From an uncultured Bacilli bacterium (GTDB lineage: Bacteria > Bacillota_I > Bacilli_A > RF39 > UBA660): a DNA stretch of 32,991 nt. Of the stretch, positions 4,478-32,873 are shown piece after piece (the first letter of the stretch is position 1; every line of letters begins with the position of its first letter). A program made the position numbers and the translations under genes. The DNA is taken from positions 1 through 32,991 of the forward strand of contig CALVQE010000009.1 in NCBI GenBank assembly GCA_944355355.1, in the 5' to 3' direction. The notes beneath the pieces are model-generated. The model did no database searches. It saw only the letters and a list, made by a program, of their open reading frames with translations, and was not told the origin of the DNA.

Positions 4478-4759
4478 ATGAACTTGTATTTAAATGAAAG
4501 AAAAAATGATATCTTCTGTGTAATTGGCCGCAACGTAAAATTCTATCGCAGTGCCTATAATCTCACCCATCCCCATGAAAACATTACGCAAGCTAAATTA
4601 GCTGAAATGGTAGGAATTACAACAACACAAATAGCAAACCTTGAAAATGAAACAGGAAAAGGAGTATCCGTTCCAGTCTTATATAATATAGCCAAAGTCT
4701 TAGAAGTATCCATGGACAAACTATGTTCCACAGAAAAAGCCCTAGTCAAAATTGACTAG
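4478..4759 (+). CDS. XRE family helix-turn-helix protein
   Basis: Single-domain Cro/C1-type DNA-binding protein of 93 residues. The helix-turn-helix is in residues 35-65: TQAKLAEMVGITTTQIANLEN, with the following helix from SVPVLYNIAKVLEVSMDKL. There is no effector or membrane domain. GGTGG lies a few bases before the ATG at 4478. The 130 bases upstream hold no strong promoter that I can identify. Its 3' end overlaps the end of the convergent ligase gene by 18 bases. Its target is unknown; the Ku/ligase pair and its own gene are the nearest candidates, and that is only a guess from position. Confidence 0.85.
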   Translation: MNLYLNERKNDIFCVIGRNVKFYRSAYNLTHPHENITQAKLAEMVGITTTQIANLENETGKGVSVPVLYNIAKVLEVSMDKLCSTEKALVKID

Positions 4760-4768
4760 AGCTTTTTT
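4735..4768. terminator. Bidirectional terminator shared by the XRE and ligase genes
   Basis: AAAAGC-CCTAGTCAA and TTGACTAG-A-GCTTTTTT form a long stem with A-runs on the left and T-runs on the right, so it can end transcription both ways. It is built from the overlapping 3' ends of two convergent reading frames. Confidence 0.8.
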
Positions 4769-5632
4769 AAATCGAATAAACACCGGATGTCTAAGTCCTC
4801 CTTTTGAACCACGTTCCAAAAACTCAACCTCTGCCCACAATTTCAAAGCCACAAAATGTACTTCTTCCGAAAAATTATTTTCCTTAAAAGAACACTTTTT
4901 CCTTTCTATTCTAGTAAGTAATACAAAAAGTTCATTCTTACGAGAAACAAAAACCTTGCCCACATAAATCAACTTACCATCTTTATATTCCCCTAAATAA
5001 AGCGAAAAAACACTTTTCGAAACCGTATAACCATAACCGCCTATCACAAACCATTCCCGCTTTAAATACTTAACCTTAACCCATTCCAAGCTGCGTGTAT
5101 TAATAAAATACAAACTATCCCTTTTCTTAGCAACCATTCCCTCTAGTTGATTCGAAACAATCTTTCGGAAAAATTTCTTACCATTACCTACAACAAAAAA
5201 AGTCTTTACAAAACAATCCGTATCCCTAAACTTATCTAATATTTTTTTTCTTTCCTCTAAAGGAACCCTCGTCAAGTCCTTTCCGTCATACAAAAGATCA
5301 AAACAAACAAACACAACAGGAATAGCTTCATTCTTTCCTAAAATTCTTTTTTGAAGCATTGAAAAATTAGGTTTTCCATCCTGAAAACAAACGATTTCCC
5401 CATCAAACACAGTTGGCCTGTCCACAAGATCCTTAATTTTTTGTAACTCTAAAAACTTGCTCGTAACATCCTTACCATGACGATTTTGAATTCTCACTGA
5501 TTTTGGACTAGCAAAAACCACAGCCCTCATCCCATCAAACTTCATCTCAAAAAAATAATTCTCATCATCAAAAGGTTCCTTCACCTCCGATAAAAGCATA
5601 GGCTGAAAAGAAGAATGCAAAAACAGATTCAT
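4742..5632 (-). CDS. ATP-dependent DNA ligase, stand-alone LigD-type ligase domain
   Basis: ATP-dependent DNA ligase of 296 residues for sealing breaks in end joining. Motif I is MKFDGMRA with the adenylated lysine at K31; then the RNRHGKD-like segment, FDGEIV (motif III region), FDLLYDG, EGMVAKK (motif IV) and WVKVKY (motif V). The last 90 residues form the OB-fold. Unlike LigD of Bacillus, Pseudomonas or mycobacteria there is no polymerase and no phosphoesterase domain, so it would close ends but not fill or trim them. It starts by ATGA overlap with ku. Motifs are intact, so activity is expected. Pairing with Ku is the reason to favour end joining over another repair role. Confidence 0.9.
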   Translation of the reverse strand: MNLFLHSSFQPMLLSEVKEPFDDENYFFEMKFDGMRAVVFASPKSVRIQNRHGKDVTSKFLELQKIKDLVDRPTVFDGEIVCFQDGKPNFSMLQKRILGKNEAIPVVFVCFDLLYDGKDLTRVPLEERKKILDKFRDTDCFVKTFFVVGNGKKFFRKIVSNQLEGMVAKKRDSLYFINTRSLEWVKVKYLKREWFVIGGYGYTVSKSVFSLYLGEYKDGKLIYVGKVFVSRKNELFVLLTRIERKKCSFKENNFSEEVHFVALKLWAEVEFLERGSKGGLRHPVFIRFKKALVNFD

Positions 5633-11027: not shown

Positions 11028-12488
11028 CTAATCCCTTGGCTTCATCAAAGGAAATAACACAACATCTTTAATATTTTCACTAGAAGTCAAAAGTTGAATC
11101 AAACGATCTATACCCATACCCCAACCACTAATAGGAGGCATACCATACTCCATAGCATGAATATAATCATAATCCATTGGCATAGCTTCTTCATCACCAT
11201 TAGCTTTTAACCTTGCTTGCTCTTCCAAACGACGCTCCTGCTCCTGAGGATCAACAAGTTCAGAATAAGCATTAATAAGTTCAGCTCCATTAATAACAAG
11301 TTGGAAACGATCCGTAATTTCTGGATCATCATCATTAGCTCTTGCCAAAGGACTTAAACTAATTGGATGTTCAACCAAAAAGACCGGATTAACCAAATGA
11401 GGTCGCGCAACCTTTTTATAAAGTTGATCAACTAAATTACCATAACCTAGATTTTCTAAAGGAACTTCTGAATCAATTTCAATATTCAAAGCTCGAATTT
11501 GTTCTAAAAGCTTTTCCTTTGTATTATAGACATGAATATCAATATTACCATACTGTAAAATCAAATCACGGAAACTTACACTAGGCCACTCCCCACTTAA
11601 ATCAACCATCTTATCGCCAACCTGGACACACAAAGTCCCAAACAATTTTTCAATAATAGTCTGTAACATTTTCCGTAACAAAACCATATTATCTTTATAA
11701 TTTAAATAAGCCCCGTATCCTTCAATCATCGTAAAATCCTGTAAATGAGTACCATCCATTCCCTCATTACGAAAACAACGTGCAATCTCAAAAACCTTAG
11801 TAAAACCACCAACAATAGCTCTTTTTAAATAAGTTTCCGGTGCAATACGCAAATAAAGATCAATATCTAAAGCATTATGATGTGTAATAAAAGGTTTAGC
11901 CGTAGCGCCACTAGCCTTATTATTTAAAATAGGTGTTTCAATTTCAACATAACCCAAATCATTTAAATAATTTCTAAGCTCGCGTATAAAAGCACTGCGA
12001 AACAAAAACTTCTTCTTCTCATCATCATTCATAATCAAATCAACATAACGTTCCCGATAAATCATTTCTTGATCTTCAAGGCCATGAAACTTTTCAGGAA
12101 GTGGTCTAAGTGCTTTACCTAAAAAAGTTATTTCACTCGCCCGAATAGTCTTTTCTCCAGTATGGGTCGTAAAAACTTCTCCAACAACACCAATAAAATC
12201 ACCTAAATCATAATTCTGTTTAAATTCCTGATAAGGCTCTTCACCAATCATATCCATCTTAACAGAAATTTGAATTCTTCCACCAATATCACCAATAGTT
12301 AAAAAACTCATCTTTCCCATCTTACGCATCAAAACAATACGACCAGCCACACGTACACCAGTAGTCTCATCAGGCAACTCTTTGGCATCCTTAATTTCCG
12401 TATTAACTTCAAATCTTTCTGGATAAGGATTTTGAATATTTTTTAACTTTTCCCTTCTAACCAATTCTTGTTCCGTAAATTCTCGCAT
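11028..12488 (-). CDS. lysS: Lysyl-tRNA synthetase, class II
   Basis: Charges tRNA-Lys with lysine in the cytoplasm; 486 residues, normal length. The N-terminal anticodon-binding OB domain (about 45-145: VRVAGRIVLMRKMGKMSFLTI) leads to the class II core: motif 1 near EIETPIL, motif 2 CFRNEGMDGTHLQDFTMIE (about 238-256) and motif 3 GWGMGIDRLIQLLT (about 455-468). Motif 2 reads THLQDFT where E. coli and B. subtilis have HNPEFT, so this belongs to a distinct branch of class II LysRS. AGAGAGGA precedes the ATG at 12488. It is transcribed alone, from its own promoter through a T-box leader (12510-12715). Confidence 0.95.
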   Translation of the reverse strand: MREFTEQELVRREKLKNIQNPYPERFEVNTEIKDAKELPDETTGVRVAGRIVLMRKMGKMSFLTIGDIGGRIQISVKMDMIGEEPYQEFKQNYDLGDFIGVVGEVFTTHTGEKTIRASEITFLGKALRPLPEKFHGLEDQEMIYRERYVDLIMNDDEKKKFLFRSAFIRELRNYLNDLGYVEIETPILNNKASGATAKPFITHHNALDIDLYLRIAPETYLKRAIVGGFTKVFEIARCFRNEGMDGTHLQDFTMIEGYGAYLNYKDNMVLLRKMLQTIIEKLFGTLCVQVGDKMVDLSGEWPSVSFRDLILQYGNIDIHVYNTKEKLLEQIRALNIEIDSEVPLENLGYGNLVDQLYKKVARPHLVNPVFLVEHPISLSPLARANDDDPEITDRFQLVINGAELINAYSELVDPQEQERRLEEQARLKANGDEEAMPMDYDYIHAMEYGMPPISGWGMGIDRLIQLLTSSENIKDVVLFPLMKPRD

Positions 12489-12509: not shown

Positions 12510-12715
12510 ATAAAAAAACAGTTATCATCCCCTAAAGGACGAATTAACTGTTAAATCCGCGGTACCACCTTATTTCATGTTTCCATGCACTTTCTAGTTT
12601 TAACGGTCCAACCGATCCACTCCAATAGCTTTATTCCTTTAATACACTTTAATAAGTTCCACCAACCCTTATCTCTCTAGAAAAGCCATAAAAAAGTACT
12701 CCTATCTTCCTCGTG
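12510..12715 (-). promoter_or_regulatory. T-box riboswitch leader of lysS
   Basis: The minus strand carries the T-box core AAGGTGGTACCGCGG (12571-12557), the upstream AGGAAGATAGGAGTA and AGAGAG/GGTTGGTGGAA stem I elements (about 12710-12655), and a competing terminator: AACAGTTA-TTCGTCC paired to GGGGATGATAACTGTT and followed by seven T (12552-12512). AAGG in the T-box can pair with CCTT as the antiterminator. A lysine codon AAA at 12632-12630, followed by a purine, lies in the likely specifier loop (GGAATAAAGC). The T-box UGGU would pair with an A discriminator, as in tRNA-Lys. Uncharged tRNA-Lys should raise lysS expression. Confidence 0.93.
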
Positions 12716-12726
12716 TTTCTGTAATT

Positions 12727-20432: not shown

Positions 20433-23339
<2,907 letters not shown>

Positions 23340-23343
<4 letters not shown>

Positions 23344-23762
23344 TTTCTTTTCTCCTTTCTTCTTTCCAACATCAATTGATCCTGTTGATTTAACTCTTCT
23401 AATTGATTCATCAAATCATCTATCGAAACACATAACTTTTTACCATATCCAGTTGCTATCTCAAAATTTTGAAAAGGCTCTTTATACCCTCCAACTCTTT
23501 TTCGCTCAAACAAAGTAGATACATACCTTTTTTGATGTATATCATAACGTAAAAAAAGAAAAGTAAAAGGACTTAATAAATCATAAACACTAAAATCATC
23601 TAAGCTAGCTATAGGTTGATAAGAAGAAATTTCTTGTAACGCATTACTATCATTTAAACTTGCCCAAGAAAAAGAAAGAACATTTTCCTTCTTAGAAAGT
23701 ACTACTCCAAAATGAACAATCGCATATCGATACAAATCAATTTCTAAAGCATCAAACCCCAT
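23340..23762 (-). CDS. Unknown protein between pcrA and the nucleotidyltransferase
   Basis: Soluble protein of 140 residues that I do not recognise. It has no membrane segment or signal peptide. The first 120 residues are aromatic-rich and mixed strand-like (DLYRYAIVHFGVVL, FTFLFLRYDIHQKRYVSTLF); the end is a charged helix (DDLMNQLEELNQQDQLMLER, then KEKRK). It is tightly coupled on both sides: the start shares TAATG with the pcrA stop and the end overlaps the next gene by ATGA. Placement suggests work with one of these partners, but no function can be inferred. Confidence 0.8.
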
Positions 23763-25846
23763 TAAGCGCCTAACTTTCTAACACTCTTATGATTTTTCAT
23801 CAATTTTCGAATTCCATATTGCTTACCAAAAGCAATAGTTAAAATAGACTTATCCACAGCAACAACAACCCCTCTGCCGTAAATTGTATGCATAACCACG
23901 TCGCCAACTTGATATTCTACATCACTATTTTGATACATTTCTTCTTTATTTATAACCTGAGAAGAAGCAATATCTTTCCTTTCAATTAACTGCTCATCAA
24001 TTTCATCTAAAAAACGACTAGGCATAAACCGATTAGTATGTCCATAAAGCATCCGACTACGAGCATTAGTAAGATATAATCTTTCCTTAGCTCTTGTAAT
24101 ACCCACATAACAAAGTCGTCTTTCTTCTTCAATTCCACCTGCTTCATTTAAAGTATTTTGATGTGGAAAAATACCATCTTCCATTCCTGACAAGAAAACA
24201 ACGGGAAACTCAAGTCCTTTTGCACTATGCAAAGTCATTAAAGTAACAACATCCTCATTAGTCTGATGCTCACTAATGTCGGCAATTAAACTAATCTCAT
24301 CCAAAAAGTCCCCCAAATCAACACTACCAGTAGTCTCCTCAAACGTCGCCGTAATACTTTTAAATTCCATCAAATTATCTAACCGAAGCTCATTCTCTAA
24401 ATTATCAACATTTTCAAGCTCAGCTCTCATTCCAGACTTTGTCAAAACATCATCAACTAACTCTGTTAAAGACAAAGACTTAGCATCATTTTGTAATTCT
24501 AAAATGAGATCTTTAAAACCCTGTTCCTTTCCTCCAGAAATAGCTTCAAACATGCTTGTTCCATCGCTTAAAGCCTTTTGTTCTAGTCGCTCAATACTCG
24601 TATTTCCAATACCTCTTTTCGGAGTATTAATAACCCTTCTAAGAGAAATATCATCACTAGGATTCAAAAGCAACTTCAAATAACAAACCAAATCTTTAAT
24701 CTCTTTTCGTGAATAAAAATAATAACTTCCAACAACCTTATAAGCAATATTTGCCTTTAAAAACTGTTCCTCCAAAGCTCTTGACTGAGCATTTGTCCGA
24801 TAAAAAACCGCAATATCTTTCTTCTGATATCCCTCATCTAACAAAGAACGGATCTCTTTAATAATATAATTCCCTTCATCTTTCTCATCCATACTCCTGT
24901 GATACTGTATCTTTAAGCCCTCACCATGATGACTCCTTAAATTCTTTTCCTTACGCTCTTTATTATTGCGAATAACCGAATTAGCCGCATCTAAAATCAT
25001 CTTCGTACTTCGATAATTATCTTCCAAAGAAATAACTTTCGTATTAGGATAATCCCGTTCAAAATTTAAAATATTCTTATAATTAGCCCCTCTAAACTGA
25101 TAAATAGATTGATCAGGATCTCCAACCACAAACAAATTCTTTCTTTTTGAAGCAAGCAATTTAACTAACTTATACTGAACCTCATTCGTATCTTGATACT
25201 CATCAATCAAAATATAACGATAACGATTCTGATACATCTCTAATACTTCTGGATGATGTAAAAACAACTCTACTGGTAATCTAAGCAAATCATCAAAATC
25301 AAACGAATTGTTCTTTTTTAAACGCATATTATATTCCAAATAGACTTCATATGCAATCTTCTCTAAATCATCAATAAAATACTTTTCCACCTCGGCATTA
25401 GACAACATCTCATTCTTAATAAAACTAATCTTACTCCGTACAAAATAAGGACTAACTTCCTTAGAATCATAACCCTTATCTTTTAAAATCTTCCGAATCA
25501 AACTTGTTACATCCTCAGTATCCAAAATCGTAAAATTACGTTGCATTCCAAGTAACTCTACATTTTCCCTTATAATACGCATCCCAAAAGAATGAAATGT
25601 TCCAATAAAAGAATCCAACTCAGAAACCATATTAAGAATTCTTTCTTTCATTTCCTTAGCAGCCTTATTTGTAAAAGTAATTGCTAAAATCTGATAAGAA
25701 GGAACACCTTCCATAATCAAATTAGCAACTCTAGTCGTAAGTACCTTCGTTTTACCAGAACCAGCCCCAGCAATAACTAAACAAGGACCATCCTTATGTA
25801 AAACAGCTTCTCTTTGTAATTCATTTAAATTCGTTGTATCAATCAT
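23762..25846 (-). CDS. pcrA: UvrD/PcrA-type DNA helicase
   Basis: 3'-5' superfamily 1A helicase of 694 residues for repair and replication restart. Motifs in order: Q motif LNELQREAV, Walker A AGAGSGKT (26-33), TFTNKAAKEMKER (Ia), ILIDEYQDTN (II), GDPDQSIYQFRGA (III), LEDNYRST (IV), TLHSAKGLEF (V) and GITRAKERLYL (VI). The C-terminal 50 residues are the Tudor-like PcrA domain (VGDVVMHTIYGRGVV). The ATG at 25846 is chosen; a TTG three codons upstream overlaps the ribosome site. It leads the operon with ligA, the standard Firmicute pairing. Confidence 0.96.
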   Translation of the reverse strand: MIDTTNLNELQREAVLHKDGPCLVIAGAGSGKTKVLTTRVANLIMEGVPSYQILAITFTNKAAKEMKERILNMVSELDSFIGTFHSFGMRIIRENVELLGMQRNFTILDTEDVTSLIRKILKDKGYDSKEVSPYFVRSKISFIKNEMLSNAEVEKYFIDDLEKIAYEVYLEYNMRLKKNNSFDFDDLLRLPVELFLHHPEVLEMYQNRYRYILIDEYQDTNEVQYKLVKLLASKRKNLFVVGDPDQSIYQFRGANYKNILNFERDYPNTKVISLEDNYRSTKMILDAANSVIRNNKERKEKNLRSHHGEGLKIQYHRSMDEKDEGNYIIKEIRSLLDEGYQKKDIAVFYRTNAQSRALEEQFLKANIAYKVVGSYYFYSRKEIKDLVCYLKLLLNPSDDISLRRVINTPKRGIGNTSIERLEQKALSDGTSMFEAISGGKEQGFKDLILELQNDAKSLSLTELVDDVLTKSGMRAELENVDNLENELRLDNLMEFKSITATFEETTGSVDLGDFLDEISLIADISEHQTNEDVVTLMTLHSAKGLEFPVVFLSGMEDGIFPHQNTLNEAGGIEEERRLCYVGITRAKERLYLTNARSRMLYGHTNRFMPSRFLDEIDEQLIERKDIASSQVINKEEMYQNSDVEYQVGDVVMHTIYGRGVVVAVDKSILTIAFGKQYGIRKLMKNHKSVRKLGA

Positions 25847-25866
25847 GACTATCAAACCTCTAAAAC

Positions 25867-25944: not shown

Positions 25945-27227
25945 CTACTCCACATATTTAATCATAGTATTTAAATCTTCATCAGTACCACTCATAAGAT
26001 CAAACAAATAATCACCAACAAGCATATCCATTTTATCCGCATCCGCTAACAAGCGTTTCACAGACCTTTCCTTAATCTTTGCAAAAACAGCTAAACCATC
26101 ATCATTAGGTAAACCCAAATATATTTTTTGGGGTTTCAAATAATTAATTAAATAAGGAGAATGACTAGTCATAATAATTTTAGTGTTCTTAGAAAAAGAT
26201 TTTAAAGCAATTAAATATCTTTGGAGTATTTTAGGATTCAATGAATTTTCAGGCTCCTCTATACCAACCAAAGCATAATGATTAATGTCTGCTAAAACTA
26301 GCGTAGTAAATATAAGCAAAACTCTTCTAACCCCATCCGACATGTCAGAAAACTCTATATTGCTTACAATATTTCTATCCTTCGCTACTAAAAAATATAT
26401 ATTATTAGCTACCATATAAGTATCATTTTCCATACTCTCATTATACTTATCAAAATTCATATTATATTCAATCGGCTCTATATCAACTATAAATGGAAAG
26501 ATATCTTTTATAGTATTAACAATCAGCTTAAACTTATCTGGAAATTCTTTTTACAATTTAAATAATATCCTCGGTACATTTGTATCATCCCCCAAACTAT
26601 AATCAAAATAATTTTTACGAATCATACCTTGTATATTATACTCATTCATCGTATTAAAATGTTTATCAACATAAACATTAATGTTATTGATCGCTTTTAC
26701 AATTTCTAAATAATAAAGATTATCATATGCTAAAATTTTATTATAACCAATTCATTATCATATATATTTATTTTCTTATTGCAAGATCCAGTAGCAGAAG
26801 ATTTATAAAATACATTTTTGCTATCCTTGCTGATATAATTAGTATATTTCTGTGAATCACCTTCCTTCATTTTAAGAAATTCACTTAATATTTTAGAACC
26901 TTTTTCATCATTCATTTTCCACCTAAACGTATATCCATAAAGAACATATATATCTTTATTCCCATTAGAAATAGTACATTCAATCTCAAAAGAAAAATCT
27001 TTAAATAAATTTTTTGAATTAAGCGGTTTGTAAGGCGAATAATTCATCATTCTATCCTTTGTTTCAACGTTCTCACGAATAAAATCCATACCGAAAACAA
27101 TGGCATCCAAACAATTAGATTTACCATAACTGTTAATCGACAGCAAACTTATCATATCATCTATTTCGATGTTCACACGATTAATATTTTTAAAACCCCC
27201 AATTGTTATTCCTTTAAGCTCAACCAT
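25945..27227 (-). pseudogene. Broken AAA ATPase gene (AAA_15/RloA-like)
   Basis: Remains of a gene of about 425 codons. The N-terminal part (27227-26730) has ITIGGFKNINRVNIEI and the P-loop NSYGKSN. A single-base shift near 26735-26750 moves the frame; the protein continues as ILAYDNLYYLEIVKAINNI and on to a TAA at 26551-26553. Beyond the stop the same frame goes on (EFPDKFKLIVNTI) into an intact C-terminal part with DMSDGVRRVLLI, VGIEEPENSLNP (Walker B) and MTSHSPYL. This is the layout of SMC-like ATPases, some of which take part in phage defence. GGAGG and a near-consensus promoter (27266-27294) are still present. No RloB-like partner is seen. Confidence 0.85.
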
Positions 27228-27265
27228 AATTTCATCCCTCCAATAAGAAAAAATGTCTATAATCA

Positions 27266-27294
27266 ATTATATTAACCGTTCAAAAAATAATCAA
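27266..27294 (-). promoter_or_regulatory. Promoter of the broken AAA ATPase gene
   Basis: TTGATT (27294-27289), 17 bases, TATAAT (27271-27266) on the minus strand, about 40 bases before the ATG. It remains near consensus although the gene is broken. Confidence 0.7.
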
Positions 27295-29351: not shown

Positions 29352-29378
29352 ACAAAAAGGAAGAAAACCTTCCTTCTC
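29352..29378 (-). terminator. Terminator behind the yihY operon
   Basis: AAGGAAG and CTTCCTT pair around GTTTT on the minus strand and are followed by TTTTTG and more T. It separates the yihY transcript from gpmI. The 112 bases between it and the yihY stop hold no gene. Confidence 0.8.
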
Positions 29379-29490
29379 AGTATTACTTTTGAATCCGTAT
29401 TCTCTTAAATCACGCGATCAAACCATAGATGCACGAATAATACTGGTGTGCATAATCTTAGTATTAGAAATAATTACAATTTTACAATAC

Positions 29491-30315
29491 CTATTTTTTC
29501 CAACTTTCCACATCATCCGTATTAATTGCAATTCCAATCGTAATAATGTAGGCTATAATATAGAACCAAAACATTAAAACCACAAAATGAGAAAGTCCTC
29601 CATAAAGCACATCATAATGAGCAACATTATTAACATATAAAGAGTAAATTACCGTACTCAAAACTAGTCCTAATGTCGTAAACAAAGAACCTTTAGTCGT
29701 ACATCTACTTGGCACATTATCATCAGGAGCTAGCGTATAAATAATTTTCACTAAAAGAAAAATCAAAAACCATGAAATAGGCCCCTTTGACAAATTTACT
29801 ATATAAGTAAGTAGATTCGTTACCCCCGTACTTATATTAACATATTGAATCAATTCAATAAATTTATCACCAAAAACAGGCACAAGTAGCAAAAACACAA
29901 TCAAAAGAACAAGAATAAACGTCATAACAAGCCCTTTAATTTTCCTTCTTAAAAAGTTTGTATTTTCAATATGATAAAGCTGATTAGAAGTTACAATAAT
30001 TGAACTTGCCCCTCCACTTGCTGCATACATTGCTACAAAAAGAGGAATCAAAACTTCCGGAGAAAAATGAATATCATCAATCATCGGAATAATTAAATTA
30101 GCAATTTCACTTCCAAAAGCTTTCATCACAAAGTCTCGCATAAAATCAATCGAAACATTAAACAACGAAGCAAAATAAATAATTAAAGTAACTGTCGGAA
30201 CAATTGCCAGAACTAAAAAGAAAGCTAACTGTCCAGGTAAAATAAGCATATCATTACGAGAAAGTGTCTTCCACATTCTATGCCAAAAATTTCGGATTCT
30301 CATTTTTAATTTCAT
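29491..30315 (-). CDS. YihY/BrkB family membrane protein
   Basis: Integral membrane protein of 274 residues with six hydrophobic helices. The family marks are the opening NDMLILPGQLAFFLVLAIVPTV (about 21-42; AA.LAYF.l.ai.P in the family), AASGGASSIIVTSNQLY (about 98-114) and the late YGGLSHFVVLMFWFYI. The exact role of the YihY/BrkB family is unsettled; the old ribonuclease BN name was an error. It overlaps the sensor gene by ATGA, so it is co-translated with it. The ribosome site is weak, which fits coupling. Confidence 0.85.
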   Translation of the reverse strand: MKLKMRIRNFWHRMWKTLSRNDMLILPGQLAFFLVLAIVPTVTLIIYFASLFNVSIDFMRDFVMKAFGSEIANLIIPMIDDIHFSPEVLIPLFVAMYAASGGASSIIVTSNQLYHIENTNFLRRKIKGLVMTFILVLLIVFLLLVPVFGDKFIELIQYVNISTGVTNLLTYIVNLSKGPISWFLIFLLVKIIYTLAPDDNVPSRCTTKGSLFTTLGLVLSTVIYSLYVNNVAHYDVLYGGLSHFVVLMFWFYIIAYIITIGIAINTDDVESWKK

Positions 30316-32324
30316 CTCGCGTCTTTTCCTTTTTGTTTCTTAATATCATCAACACATTCATTAATTGCATCTTCAACAGATTTCAAATCACTATCAATCA
30401 TACTATACGTAATACAAGCTCCATAATCATAAGGTAAATTTTTAAAATCCTTATTCAACTTATGAATATAACTCGTAATCTGTTTTTGATTATACCCAAC
30501 CATATAAATAATAAATTCGTTTCCATTAGTTCTGATAATATCTGTATTATCAAGCTGAGTCTTAATCAAACTATTGGCGGCCCCTTTAATCTGTCTGTCT
30601 CCCTCTTCATAACCTAAAGTATCATTAATTTCTTGAACACGATTCAAATCAATCATCACAACACATTGAGGATAAATAGTATTTTTATTCCAACTAGAAA
30701 GACTTTCATTAAGATAATTTCTATTCTTTAAAGAAGTTAACTGATCAATAAACTTAAGCTTATCTTCTTTTCTAATTTTTTTCTGCATACGAATTCTCTT
30801 ACTAGAACGATAAATTAATAACAAAATCAAAATAATTAAAATAACAGAATACAAAGCATACTTAGCCAAACTACTTAAGAAAGAACCCTTACTTTCAGTT
30901 ACAGAAGCAGAATAAATTCCTTTTTCAATAAAAGTACCTTGATCAATATAATTCATATACTTAGCCAATAACAAATTAAACGTTTCACTACCAGTTGATT
31001 TCAAAGAATAATTTACGTTTAGCTCAGCAATATAACGAGAATGATACTTCTTTAAAGAAGAACGTCTCAAATATTCCCCAACTTGATCATCCATAACAAC
31101 TAAATTATTTTCATCCTTAAGTACCTTACTAAGCTCATCTTTCTTGTAAGTAACTAAATTTAATCCATTAATAGACGCTAAATTTTGATATAACAAAGAA
31201 TTTTCTTCAACATACAATGGCGTATCACCTAAAGTAGTTAACGAAGAAATAACGATCGGATTAGACTCATGAGCATAAATAGCATAACTAAGAGGAAGAT
31301 TAATATCGACAATAGATCCAGCCGTAAACGAAGTATTATAATTAAAATACAACGAAATATTTCCATTATTCATATCTCTTAACATTCTACGCTCATTACT
31401 ATAACGTTTATACTCAATATCTAAATTTAAAAACTTTGCAAATGCCCCAACATACTCAGACAAAATTCCACCAAACTCGCCATCACCATACACTTCATAA
31501 GGTAAATTAGTCATAAAGCCATAAGTAACAGTAGTTTTTCTCATCTCATCAACCATTGCATCTGTAACATTTAAAGCCCCTTGAAACAAAGCAAGTTCCT
31601 GAGCATACAACTCAGTCTCTAAAGCGTCTTCTGACCACTTAGCAAAATATTTTCGCATAATACGAAACAAAACTGAATCATTACTATCTCTCAAAACAAA
31701 ATAACGTTTCAAATCACTAAAATGATGAACAATCCATAAATTCTTTTCCAAAATTGTATCCATATTTTCCATTCTTGGTACAATAACATAAGAAACATTG
31801 CCACTATCCAACGCATTAAATAACTCATCAGAAGAAGAATAAAGAGTTAAAGCGCCTGAACCACCTAAATAATTTTTCACTACATCATTAAATGTACTTA
31901 AAACGCCAATTTTTTGTGAAGCTAAATCCTCTAATCCAATACTAACTTCATTTTTCTTGGAAACCAAAACATAATGATCTTCATAAAATGGCACATCGAG
32001 ATCCAAAAGTGCATTTGTCACAGTTAAACTAAGACCATCAGGACTCTCGCTACCAGTCACAGTAATAGGATTAAACTGCAAACTATATTCCTCACTAAAA
32101 TCATTCAAAAAAGAATAATATACTCCATTGCCTAAATTTCCAAACAAATTAGCATCATTTAAAACATATACATTTTGAACAACATTGGCATTTTCTGTAA
32201 TCCATAAACGTTCACTAGAAGATAAACGATTTTCATCCCGTAAAAGAAAGTATCCTCCAATAACAGCAATAAGAACAACTAAAACACAAAGTAAAATAAC
32301 AATCTTTTTCTTTTTTCTTTTCAT
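30312..32324 (-). CDS. Membrane sensor: periplasmic-binding-like domains plus degenerate GGDEF
   Basis: Sensor-like protein of 670 residues. One membrane helix near the start (about 8-27) and one near 485-505 enclose a large extracellular part that looks like two solute-binding (SBP_bac_3-like) domains: FNPITVTGSESPDGLSLT onwards and TYGFMTNLPYEVYGD onwards. The cytoplasmic part (about 520-665) is a GGDEF domain: DQLTSLKNRNYL and VVMIDLNRVQEINDTLGYEEGD are typical, but the active-site loop reads NGNEF (600-604) instead of GG(D/E)EF. Cyclase activity is therefore doubtful; it may bind nucleotide or signal through YihY. No EAL or HD domain is present. GAGGAG precedes the ATG. Confidence 0.82.
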   Translation of the reverse strand: MKRKKKKIVILLCVLVVLIAVIGGYFLLRDENRLSSSERLWITENANVVQNVYVLNDANLFGNLGNGVYYSFLNDFSEEYSLQFNPITVTGSESPDGLSLTVTNALLDLDVPFYEDHYVLVSKKNEVSIGLEDLASQKIGVLSTFNDVVKNYLGGSGALTLYSSSDELFNALDSGNVSYVIVPRMENMDTILEKNLWIVHHFSDLKRYFVLRDSNDSVLFRIMRKYFAKWSEDALETELYAQELALFQGALNVTDAMVDEMRKTTVTYGFMTNLPYEVYGDGEFGGILSEYVGAFAKFLNLDIEYKRYSNERRMLRDMNNGNISLYFNYNTSFTAGSIVDINLPLSYAIYAHESNPIVISSLTTLGDTPLYVEENSLLYQNLASINGLNLVTYKKDELSKVLKDENNLVVMDDQVGEYLRRSSLKKYHSRYIAELNVNYSLKSTGSETFNLLLAKYMNYIDQGTFIEKGIYSASVTESKGSFLSSLAKYALYSVILIILILLLIYRSSKRIRMQKKIRKEDKLKFIDQLTSLKNRNYLNESLSSWNKNTIYPQCVVMIDLNRVQEINDTLGYEEGDRQIKGAANSLIKTQLDNTDIIRTNGNEFIIYMVGYNQKQITSYIHKLNKDFKNLPYDYGACITYSMIDSDLKSVEDAINECVDDIKKQKGKDAR

Positions 32325-32327
32325 AAA

Positions 32328-32819
32328 TTACTCCTCAGTTGTTATAGGTGTATTATTATTCCAAATAATTTGTAGCTGACTTTCACCAATATTCTTAGCA
32401 CCCATAACAATAAAGCCCTCTTGATTCTCCGTACCTTCACTAACTAAAGTATAATGAATATCATAATTTGTTAAATATTCTTCAGGTATAACACTTAAAG
32501 TACCATTGGCAATTTCCTTAGCTTTTTCCATAGTAACATTTTCAAAAGTAGCTCGAATATAAATAATTTTTCCTTGAGTTCGAACTTCAACATTTGTTAC
32601 CGTTTCATTTTCTTGAAACTTAGCAATAATAGCATTCTTATCCTCATCTTTTAAAGGAATATCACTAATACTATCTAATCGATCTCCATAATTAGAATTA
32701 CCATTACCAACAAAATACTTCACACAAACAACAAGCATAATAATAAAACAAATAATAACTATAGCTGCTAACACAAACAAAACACGATTCTTATTCCACA
32801 TATCTTTAATTTTTTTCAT
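32328..32819 (-). CDS. Membrane-anchored extracellular protein of unknown function
   Basis: Protein of 163 residues that I do not recognise. A basic start (KKIKDMWNKNR) and one helix (about 13-36) point to an inside-anchored, outside-facing protein; it has no signal cleavage site or lipobox. The outer part is a small alpha/beta domain: DEDKNAIIAKFQ, VTNVEVRTQGKIIYIRATFE, TMEKAKEIANGTL, DIHYTLVSE and GFIVMGAKN, ending in an acidic tail. AGGTGATG precedes the ATG. It ends three bases before the sensor gene start and is the first gene from the promoter at 32845-32873, so it may work with that sensor. Confidence 0.82.
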   Translation of the reverse strand: MKKIKDMWNKNRVLFVLAAIVIICFIIMLVVCVKYFVGNGNSNYGDRLDSISDIPLKDEDKNAIIAKFQENETVTNVEVRTQGKIIYIRATFENVTMEKAKEIANGTLSVIPEEYLTNYDIHYTLVSEGTENQEGFIVMGAKNIGESQLQIIWNNNTPITTEE

Positions 32820-32844
32820 TTCATCACCTGACTTTTGTATTCTT

Positions 32845-32873
32845 ATTATACATGATAATAAAAATTTTTTAAA
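32845..32873 (-). promoter_or_regulatory. Promoter of the sensor/yihY operon
   Basis: TTTAAA (32873-32868), 17 bases, TATAAT (32850-32845) on the minus strand, 25 bases before the first gene. Confidence 0.7.

Follow-up and report, generated by a model that had tools for sequence, protein, structure and literature searches.

In a 32,991-nucleotide contig from an uncultured Bacilli bacterium (order RF39, family UBA660; assembly GCA_944355355.1, contig CALVQE010000009.1), we found a three-gene locus whose central product may read a guanine nucleotide through a GGDEF fold that has departed from the signature of active cyclases. The whole of this stretch, contig G000:C9 of a 1.37 Mb draft genome (G000), is referred to as the window. 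The locus lies at the end of the contig on the minus strand and encodes, tightly packed according to the open reading frame (ORF) listing, a small membrane protein (SML), a sensor with a degenerate GGDEF output (GGD) and a BrkB/YihY-family membrane protein (BrkB). We put at roughly 0.5 the probability that GGD acts as a nucleotide-binding receptor without cyclase activity, which would pass an outside signal on to an envelope function, probably through BrkB. What is new here is a candidate degenerate GGDEF receptor that is near-universal in its family, has its own signature, sits in a fixed operon and mostly comes without visible partners in cyclic diguanosine monophosphate (c-di-GMP) signalling. 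An initial annotation, made from the sequence of the window alone, had noticed the altered GGDEF loop and proposed that the domain binds a nucleotide rather than makes one, as part of a sensory unit of three proteins; its observation is confirmed by the data below and its interpretation partly supported.

A degenerate GGDEF signature is fixed across the family

We aligned 153 distinct full-length GGD orthologues after removal of truncated, broken and duplicate copies. They were taken from 182 loci, a set weighted towards the window's own relatives (30 same-genus loci, 28 best family matches, 40 from selected genomes, the best 80 of one scan and 4 more). Residues were equated with those of PleD by motif, R366 and E371 being named by position only; the 29 canonical GGDEF proteins aligned for comparison were chosen by motif, so their own motif carries no information. 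The signature loop of the window protein reads NGNEF. This loop is real and, as the initial annotation had stated, breaks the cyclase signature, but NGNEF is a minority form (20 of 153), a local variant of the family-wide DGNEF (111 of 153). The remaining signatures were DGTEF (13), SGNEF (3), DGNEY (2) and one each of SGDEF, NGDEF, DGDEF and DGSEF, and most loops across genus and family fit [D/N/S]-G-[N/T]-E-[F/Y]. Close homologues with a standard GGDEF, named in the annotation as evidence that would speak against its proposal, were not present (0 of 153). The position of PleD G368 was never glycine, and that of the catalytic third residue, E370, was N in 136, T in 13, D in 3 and S in 1 orthologue (N602 in the window). 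Active cyclases are described as following the pattern [G/A/S]G[D/E]E[F/Y] (PMC8835794); the acid at position 3 of this pattern is missing from the window GGD and occurs in 3 of the 153 orthologues.

The rest of the active site presented a different picture. In PleD, D327 and E370 bind metal, N335 and D344 contact the guanine, and E370, K442 and R446 contact the phosphates (PMC12943098, PMC7288161). The positions of N335, D344, R366, G369 and E371 were invariant in all 153 orthologues, that of K442 was K in 152 and that of D327 was D in 148. In the window protein, the equivalents of N335, D344, K442 and D327 are N567, D576, K665 and D559, which would provide contacts to guanosine triphosphate (GTP) and a metal ligand, and with R598, G601 and E603 also retained, the annotation's remark that the remainder of the domain is well kept proved correct. 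The window protein has lost the first glycine, the acid at position 3, a basic residue at the R446 position and the RxxD inhibitory site. The R446 position, close to a ragged C-terminus, was K in 70, E in 24, N in 16 and D in 11 of the 153 orthologues and is Ala in the window, and the K332 position was Q in 99 and K in 33. Judged from these residue patterns, the guanine pocket appears to be retained while the catalytic acid is kept out, and the combination of preserved guanine and most phosphate contacts with a lost catalytic acid fits a domain that binds rather than makes a nucleotide.

Comparison of the domains of GGD pointed in the same direction. Over 1500 random pairs, mean pairwise identity was 0.634 for the GGDEF domain, as compared to 0.324 and 0.304 for the two sensor domains; the output domain appears twice as conserved as the sensor, the opposite of decay. 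We had considered that NGNEF might reflect chance or decay, an explanation that is ruled out by the family-wide fixation of the degenerate signature in the most conserved part of the protein. A pure protein-protein domain, in which the GGDEF fold would only dimerise and dock on a partner and bind no nucleotide, could account for the loss of the catalytic acid and first glycine and for the Ala at the R446 position, and GGDEF proteins that do not synthesise are known, FimX being an example (PMC12943098, PMC7288161). A mere scaffold, however, would have no need of N335, D344, R366 and E371 in 153 of 153 orthologues and of K442 in 152, and we regard this alternative as unlikely.

The GGDEF fold is linked to a predicted tandem Venus-flytrap sensor

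The AlphaFold model of GGD, computed from an alignment of 59 sequences, had a mean predicted local distance difference test score (pLDDT) of 88.2 and a predicted template modelling score (pTM) of 0.71. According to this model, the outer part of GGD is made up of two binding-protein domains. In structural superpositions with VIA-align, the first domain (model residues 37-247) matched 5eyf with a Z-score of 16.8 and a root-mean-square deviation (rmsd) of 3.5 over 207 residues, and the second matched the VFT2 domain of BvgS (3mpk) with a Z-score of 18.7 and an rmsd of 3.0 over 220 residues. The initial annotation was right to call GGD a sensor with binding-protein domains; the predicted structure shows two of them, although Pfam gave no more than a weak hit to SBP_bac_3 (E=0.053, under the cut-off). 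For the output part, PF00990 (GGDEF) matched residues 525-629 with E=2e-16, and the model aligned with 4urq (Z 16.8, rmsd 2.1 over 136 residues) and with GTP-bound 5llx (Z 16.6, rmsd 1.8 over 134 residues), assigning it to the GGDEF fold. No EAL domain was matched by Pfam in GGD.

The first rows of a Foldseek search with GGD were the tandem flytrap parts of BvgS/EvgS (4q0c and 9ilw at ranks 1 and 2), the GlnPQ tandem and 5gzs. BvgS and EvgS are sensor kinases that share a tandem Venus-flytrap periplasmic part with GGD, and the output of EvgS is a histidine kinase. BvgS likewise signals through a histidine kinase (PMC5431781), whereas the output of GGD has a GGDEF fold. In this respect GGD is closer to CdgH of Vibrio cholerae, which also joins two tandem outer binding-protein domains to a GGDEF domain; 5GZS represents the periplasmic part of this diguanylate cyclase, its first domain binds L-arginine, and a ligand-driven change of the flytrap dimer is described (PMC5431781). 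Superposition of GGD on 5gzs gave a Z-score of 18.1 over 396 residues with an rmsd of 6.5, and this high rmsd over the domain pair indicates that the domain arrangement of GGD differs from that of CdgH. Unlike the cyclase CdgH (PMC5431781), GGD lacks the catalytic acid.

Of note, one same-genus copy of GGD (L015 / L137) is split by an in-frame TGA into pieces of 575 and 85 residues, which may represent a broken copy or an assembly error. We also compared GGD with YybT of Bacillus subtilis, for which GdpP is a synonym and which has PAS and DHH-DHHA1 domains. YybT is, like GGD, a protein with a degenerate GGDEF of this class (PMC12943098, PMC7288161), and the slow hydrolysis of nucleotides by its GGDEF raises the alternative that hydrolysis of ATP or GTP drives or times a switch in GGD. 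The D327, E371 and K442 positions that GGD keeps would be compatible with such a hydrolase, but neither PAS nor DHH-DHHA1 was matched in the 670-residue GGD (Pfam, up to E=1), and we consider hydrolysis decidedly improbable.

GGD spans the family, mostly without visible c-di-GMP partners

Of 169 family genomes, 162 contained a GGD match, as did 142 of 147 genera; in G093 and G222 the match had the strength of the GGDEF domain only. Outside the family, in a 296-genome sample of the class, the matches listed started at position 405 or later of the 674-position profile, and would not extend beyond the GGDEF part, the transmembrane helix with the linker and the last portion of the second sensor domain. 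From these sequence matches, full-length GGD appears to be an ancestral trait of one family.

We next consider the c-di-GMP context, bearing in mind that the family genomes are drafts, 51 to 99% complete, so that absence is no proof. GGDEF was matched in 275 of 291 family genomes; counted by hand from the table, 197 had exactly one match, 78 had two or three and 16 had none, and in at least G093 the single match is not GGD. The window genome has one GGDEF match, and neither EAL, PilZ, HD_5 nor the c-di-GMP-I riboswitch was matched there, the search being confined to these among c-di-GMP receptors and enzymes. In the family, EAL was present in 16 of 145 genomes, PilZ in 0 of 145, HD_5 in 16 of 117 and the c-di-GMP-I riboswitch in 6 of 117, the riboswitch search using strict filters and matching 0 of its 14 control genomes. 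Most sampled family genomes show no c-di-GMP signalling of their own. Some genera may have such signalling, with further GGDEF proteins of canonical type. Separately, genome G093, which has no full GGD or BrkB match, contains a 736-residue frame with GGDEF and HD_5 (G093:C4:144135-145157), a possible real c-di-GMP enzyme.

Two alternatives depend on this context. GGD could be an active cyclase with an altered site, making c-di-GMP or another dinucleotide; its guanine contacts are intact, and SGDEF, DGDEF and NGDEF each occur in one orthologue. Acid at position 3 is nonetheless confined to these 3 of 153, the described active pattern has D or E there (PMC8835794), and the window genome lacks matches to the partners just listed, which makes cyclase activity very unlikely in our view. 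The second alternative concerns the RxxD inhibitory site, which is common, not universal, in active GGDEF proteins. In the GGD orthologues this site is gone: 3 of 153 have R at the R359 position and none has D at the D362 position (L591 and T594 in the window). The receptors of c-di-GMP are described as including degenerate GGDEF domains (PMC7288161), but a receptor binding c-di-GMP through the inhibitory site would have to do without that site and, in the 197 of 291 genomes with a single GGDEF match, without a second GGDEF protein found to make the ligand; we see hardly any chance for it.

BrkB and SML accompany GGD

The gene behind GGD encodes a BrkB/YihY protein, scoring 133.5 bits against PF03631 (E=1.4e-38; cut-off 33.7) and 74.5 against TIGR00765 (cut-off 73.15), and overlaps GGD by 4 nucleotides, in agreement with the annotated YihY-type membrane protein beside the sensor. 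It is the only PF03631 match found in the window genome. Across the family, PF03631 was matched in 134 of 145 genomes, with a single match over the cut-off except in G134 and G173, where it fell into two pieces. Of the genomes without BrkB, eight are also without GGD (G060, G070, G075, G093, G132, G139, G170 and G179, which are all the GGD-less genomes among the 145), and three, G076, G104 and G177, have GGD or a piece of it. The joint loss of GGD and BrkB is weaker evidence than it looks, because one assembly gap can remove adjacent genes together. By hand reading, BrkB adjoins GGD in about 126 of the 134 genomes; in G129 it is about 1.7 kb away, and in G143 and G160 it was not placed.

The neighbourhood proposed in the initial annotation is conserved. 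In 68 family loci, which come from 66 genomes (G150 and G216 contributing twice), SML was adjacent in 67, the one miss being a contig edge, BrkB in 66 and both in 65. In 80 named loci, SML was adjacent in 77 (3 edges) and BrkB in 79 (1 edge), and in 30 same-genus loci, SML in 29 (1 edge) and BrkB in 30; these three sets overlap. SML precedes GGD by 3 nucleotides in the window. Over 169 loci, with gene starts called mechanically, the median spacing was 4 nucleotides between SML and GGD (-80 to 25) and -4 between GGD and BrkB (-86 to 278). The short or negative gaps suggest that the trio is packed for co-expression.

The gene ahead of SML varied. Among 120 loci, many of them related and not to be counted as 120 independent events, it was LigA in 40, GatB in 21, TypA in 11 and another gene in 41, the rest being contig ends or one nucleotidyltransferase. 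This variability allows the trio as a unit to be tested against a merely inherited position. An alternative is that SML and BrkB are neighbours by inherited position only, with no shared function. In its favour, SML relatives stand behind GatB in other families without GGD, and in five of 134 genomes (G082, G105, G108, G165 and G191) BrkB lies on another contig than GGD. Yet the trio is intact where LigA or GatB is no longer ahead of it, its ORFs touch or overlap, and the eight GGD-less genomes among the 145 are also without BrkB, though an assembly gap could explain the latter. On balance, inherited position alone strikes us as an improbable explanation.

We further observed a sulfatase-fold protein at most four genes downstream of the trio in 21 of the 120 loci (PF00884 in the two tested), for instance in L103 (10740-12830) and L179 (9042-11006), and several of these loci had a relative of an uncharacterised 207-residue protein behind it. 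No sulfatase was found among the scanned genes downstream of the window trio, where one 143-residue ORF was unscanned. We dropped the sulfatase as part of the unit, or as a link to the envelope, since 21 of 120 loci are too few to define a unit; an LtaS-like role would be an inference.

SML appears older than the locus

SML has a hydrophobic helix near its N-terminus (roughly residues 12-37) and, behind this helix, a small alpha/beta domain that is probably extracellular. The window protein had no Pfam match over the cut-off and no NCBIfam match, and its model had a mean pLDDT of 81.8 and a pTM of 0.60. In the fold search, ranks 1, 2, 3 and 6 were taken by the C-terminal domain of the lipoprotein CamS (4hn3, Z 9.3; 3ib5, 8.7; 2qx2, 8.2; 3n2q, 7.1), with an rmsd of 3.3 over 96 residues for 4hn3; the margin is modest, other folds scoring between Z 6 and 8. 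These ranks, together with the frequent position of SML beside LigA or GatB, led us to consider SML as a displaced CamS. However, SML shows no significant sequence similarity to CamS and has a hydrophobic anchor helix with one small domain. PF07537 (CamS) was found neither in the window SML up to E=1 nor in the window genome, and for the other 58 SML members it was not among the 25 of 112 Pfam families listed. Profile comparison with hhalign gave a probability of 0.9% against 27 CamS sequences and 3.1% against a single one, the latter in another part of the chain. The displaced-CamS idea is weakened by this lack of profile support, by the coexistence of CamS and SML in G185 and G223, and by the gene order in other families described below.

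A profile search of 198 genomes of the class matched 44, comprising 22 of the 25 family members listed and 22 genomes of other families. The relatives in other families were weak matches (E 3e-12 to 5e-4), mostly of 201-286 residues, with one more match in a 1126-residue frame. We inspected the loci of 7 of these 22 genomes. A hydrophobic stretch was present in all seven, followed by a [Y/L]G-x-R motif in six. The SML relative stood directly behind GatB in six of the seven (L265 being the exception), and four shared the CamS neighbourhood, with CamS upstream in the order CamS, a 95-98-residue ORF, GatA, GatB and the SML relative. The gene after it, in six of six loci where it was seen, encoded a product of 441-460 residues; the one tested was RlmD. 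No ORF of at least 90 residues in the seven loci was matched by the GGD or the BrkB profile. The initial annotation had the trio led by a small anchored unknown; SML does stand just ahead of GGD, but it is not specific to the sensor, and we dropped the idea that it belongs to a sensor-specific unit.

In G185 and G223 the gene order is CamS, GatA, GatB, SML, GGD, BrkB and sulfatase, which may be the old arrangement. SML itself appears, from its distribution, to be older than the trio. A likely history is that SML came from a LigA-CamS-GatAB operon, that the ancestor of the family gained GGD and BrkB downstream of it, and that the block moved in several lineages.

A possible GTP-reading switch at the envelope

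That an odd form of the GGDEF domain and the same two neighbours have been kept across the family is more suggestive of a switch that reads GTP than of a dead relic. In such a switch, a ligand or the state of the envelope would be sensed outside the cell by the pair of Venus-flytrap domains, perhaps with the help of SML. Closure of the flytraps would shift the dimer via the second transmembrane helix and the long helix that continues it, and the GGDEF-fold dimer would bind GTP or another guanine nucleotide without condensing it. A partner in the membrane or the cytoplasm could then respond to whether the site is occupied or empty. The most likely candidate is the co-translated BrkB/YihY protein, to which gene order, overlap and co-occurrence point, and an envelope function would be adjusted to both the outside signal and cellular GTP. 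We infer GTP binding, dimerisation, the BrkB link and the envelope role alike. The idea of GTP sensing is supported by a precedent: in Caulobacter CC3396 (GEDEF-EAL), a degenerate GEDEF domain binds GTP and activates its own EAL domain (PMC12943098, PMC7288161, PMC4823724). A degenerate GGDEF domain is retained in both proteins, with a regulatory role of GTP binding described for CC3396 and a compatible residue pattern in GGD. In CC3396, however, the regulated EAL domain belongs to the same polypeptide and the GEDEF motif keeps the acid at position 3, whereas GGD has no EAL match and has lost the acid.

Several observations weigh against GGD being a receptor of this kind. Affinity for GTP could be poor, given the loss of E370, a metal and phosphate ligand, the Ala at the R446 position of the window protein and the Q at the K332 position in 99 of 153 orthologues. 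Three orthologues have D at position 3, and the SGDEF of locus L101 (genome G220) fits the active pattern given in PMC8835794. Part of the family may use c-di-GMP, as 78 of 291 genomes have two or three GGDEF matches and some family genomes have EAL, HD_5 or the riboswitch, and the riboswitch search was the one that matched no control. G076 and G177 have GGD and no BrkB match, BrkB is on a separate contig in the five genomes named above, and SML relatives occur without GGD in other families. Our literature search, judged by title and the start of the abstract, found no paper settling the function of the BrkB/YihY family. A more far-reaching version, in which GGD would be a family-wide receptor for GTP or guanosine tetraphosphate (ppGpp) with a DGNEF signature, directly gating BrkB and forming a c-di-GMP-independent link between outside signal and GTP at the envelope, is tentative and in our estimate rather doubtful.

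The degenerate GGDEF domains described in PMC12943098, PMC7288161 and PMC4823724 are parts of c-di-GMP enzymes or receptors. We found no paper joining RF39 and GGDEF and, by title or start of the abstract, no paper on degenerate or tandem-flytrap GGDEF proteins describing the SML-GGD-BrkB unit. With GGD, the GGDEF domain as a plain GTP receptor would become testable with little c-di-GMP background. The locus also offers a handle on the BrkB/YihY family, for which we found no settled role, and draws attention to a small membrane protein, SML, that in other families of the class is associated with the LigA-CamS-GatAB operon.

Features of the locus and of the remaining window

The features of the locus are compiled in Table 1. 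The limits of the first transmembrane helix are approximate. The promoter-like site should be taken as weak evidence, as the AT-rich window gave 24 matches with 20.3 expected by chance; its start, 32873, is also where the initial annotation let the region end. Downstream of BrkB, the hairpin is followed by a gene for 2,3-bisphosphoglycerate-independent phosphoglycerate mutase (iPGM; NCBIfam).

Table 1. Coordinates of the SML-GGD-BrkB locus and its flanking signals in the window.
Feature	Position	Strand	Basis
Promoter-like site TTTAAA-17-TATAAT, upstream of SML	32845..32873	-	Consensus scan
SML, 163 aa	32328..32819	-	ORF
GGD, 670 aa, predicted tandem binding-protein-domain sensor with degenerate GGDEF output	30312..32324	-	ORF, Pfam, model
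GGD, first transmembrane helix (TM1), residues 7-28	32241..32306	-	Model helix 3-28 after lysine/arginine-rich start
GGD, first binding-protein (Venus-flytrap) domain, residues 36-250	31575..32219	-	Model; structural match 5eyf
GGD, second binding-protein domain, residues 255-480	30885..31562	-	Model; BvgS VFT2 3mpk
GGD, second transmembrane helix (TM2) continuing as long signalling helix, residues 482-546	30687..30881	-	One model helix, H482-546
GGD, GGDEF-fold domain, residues 525-669; start overlapped by long helix	30318..30752	-	PF00990; 4urq, 5llx
GGD, NGNEF signature loop, residues 600-604, degenerate at positions 1 and 3	30513..30527	-	ORF, orthologue alignment
BrkB/YihY-family membrane protein, 274 aa	29491..30315	-	ORF; PF03631, TIGR00765
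Terminator-like hairpin between BrkB and iPGM gene	29353..29379	-	Scan (1 found, 1.0 expected by chance); position intergenic

Elsewhere in the window, at least 3.6 kb downstream of the trio, the minus strand carries LigA, a 300-residue ORF (unscanned) and a PcrA/UvrD-type helicase (20433-25855). In loci L128 and L129, a PcrA-nucleotidyltransferase-LigA block is found directly ahead of SML. Two DNA ligases are encoded in the window, one ATP-dependent (4742-5632) and the other the NAD-dependent LigA (20433-22439, minus strand). The gene for an AAA-type ATPase at 25945-27266 (minus strand) is spread over two frames, an N-terminal one (26730-27266) and a C-terminal one with AAA_21 (25945-26460), and looks frame-broken. 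Finally, a T-box leader (12532-12720, minus strand; Rfam, 99.5 bits) precedes a class II tRNA synthetase gene (11028-12488).

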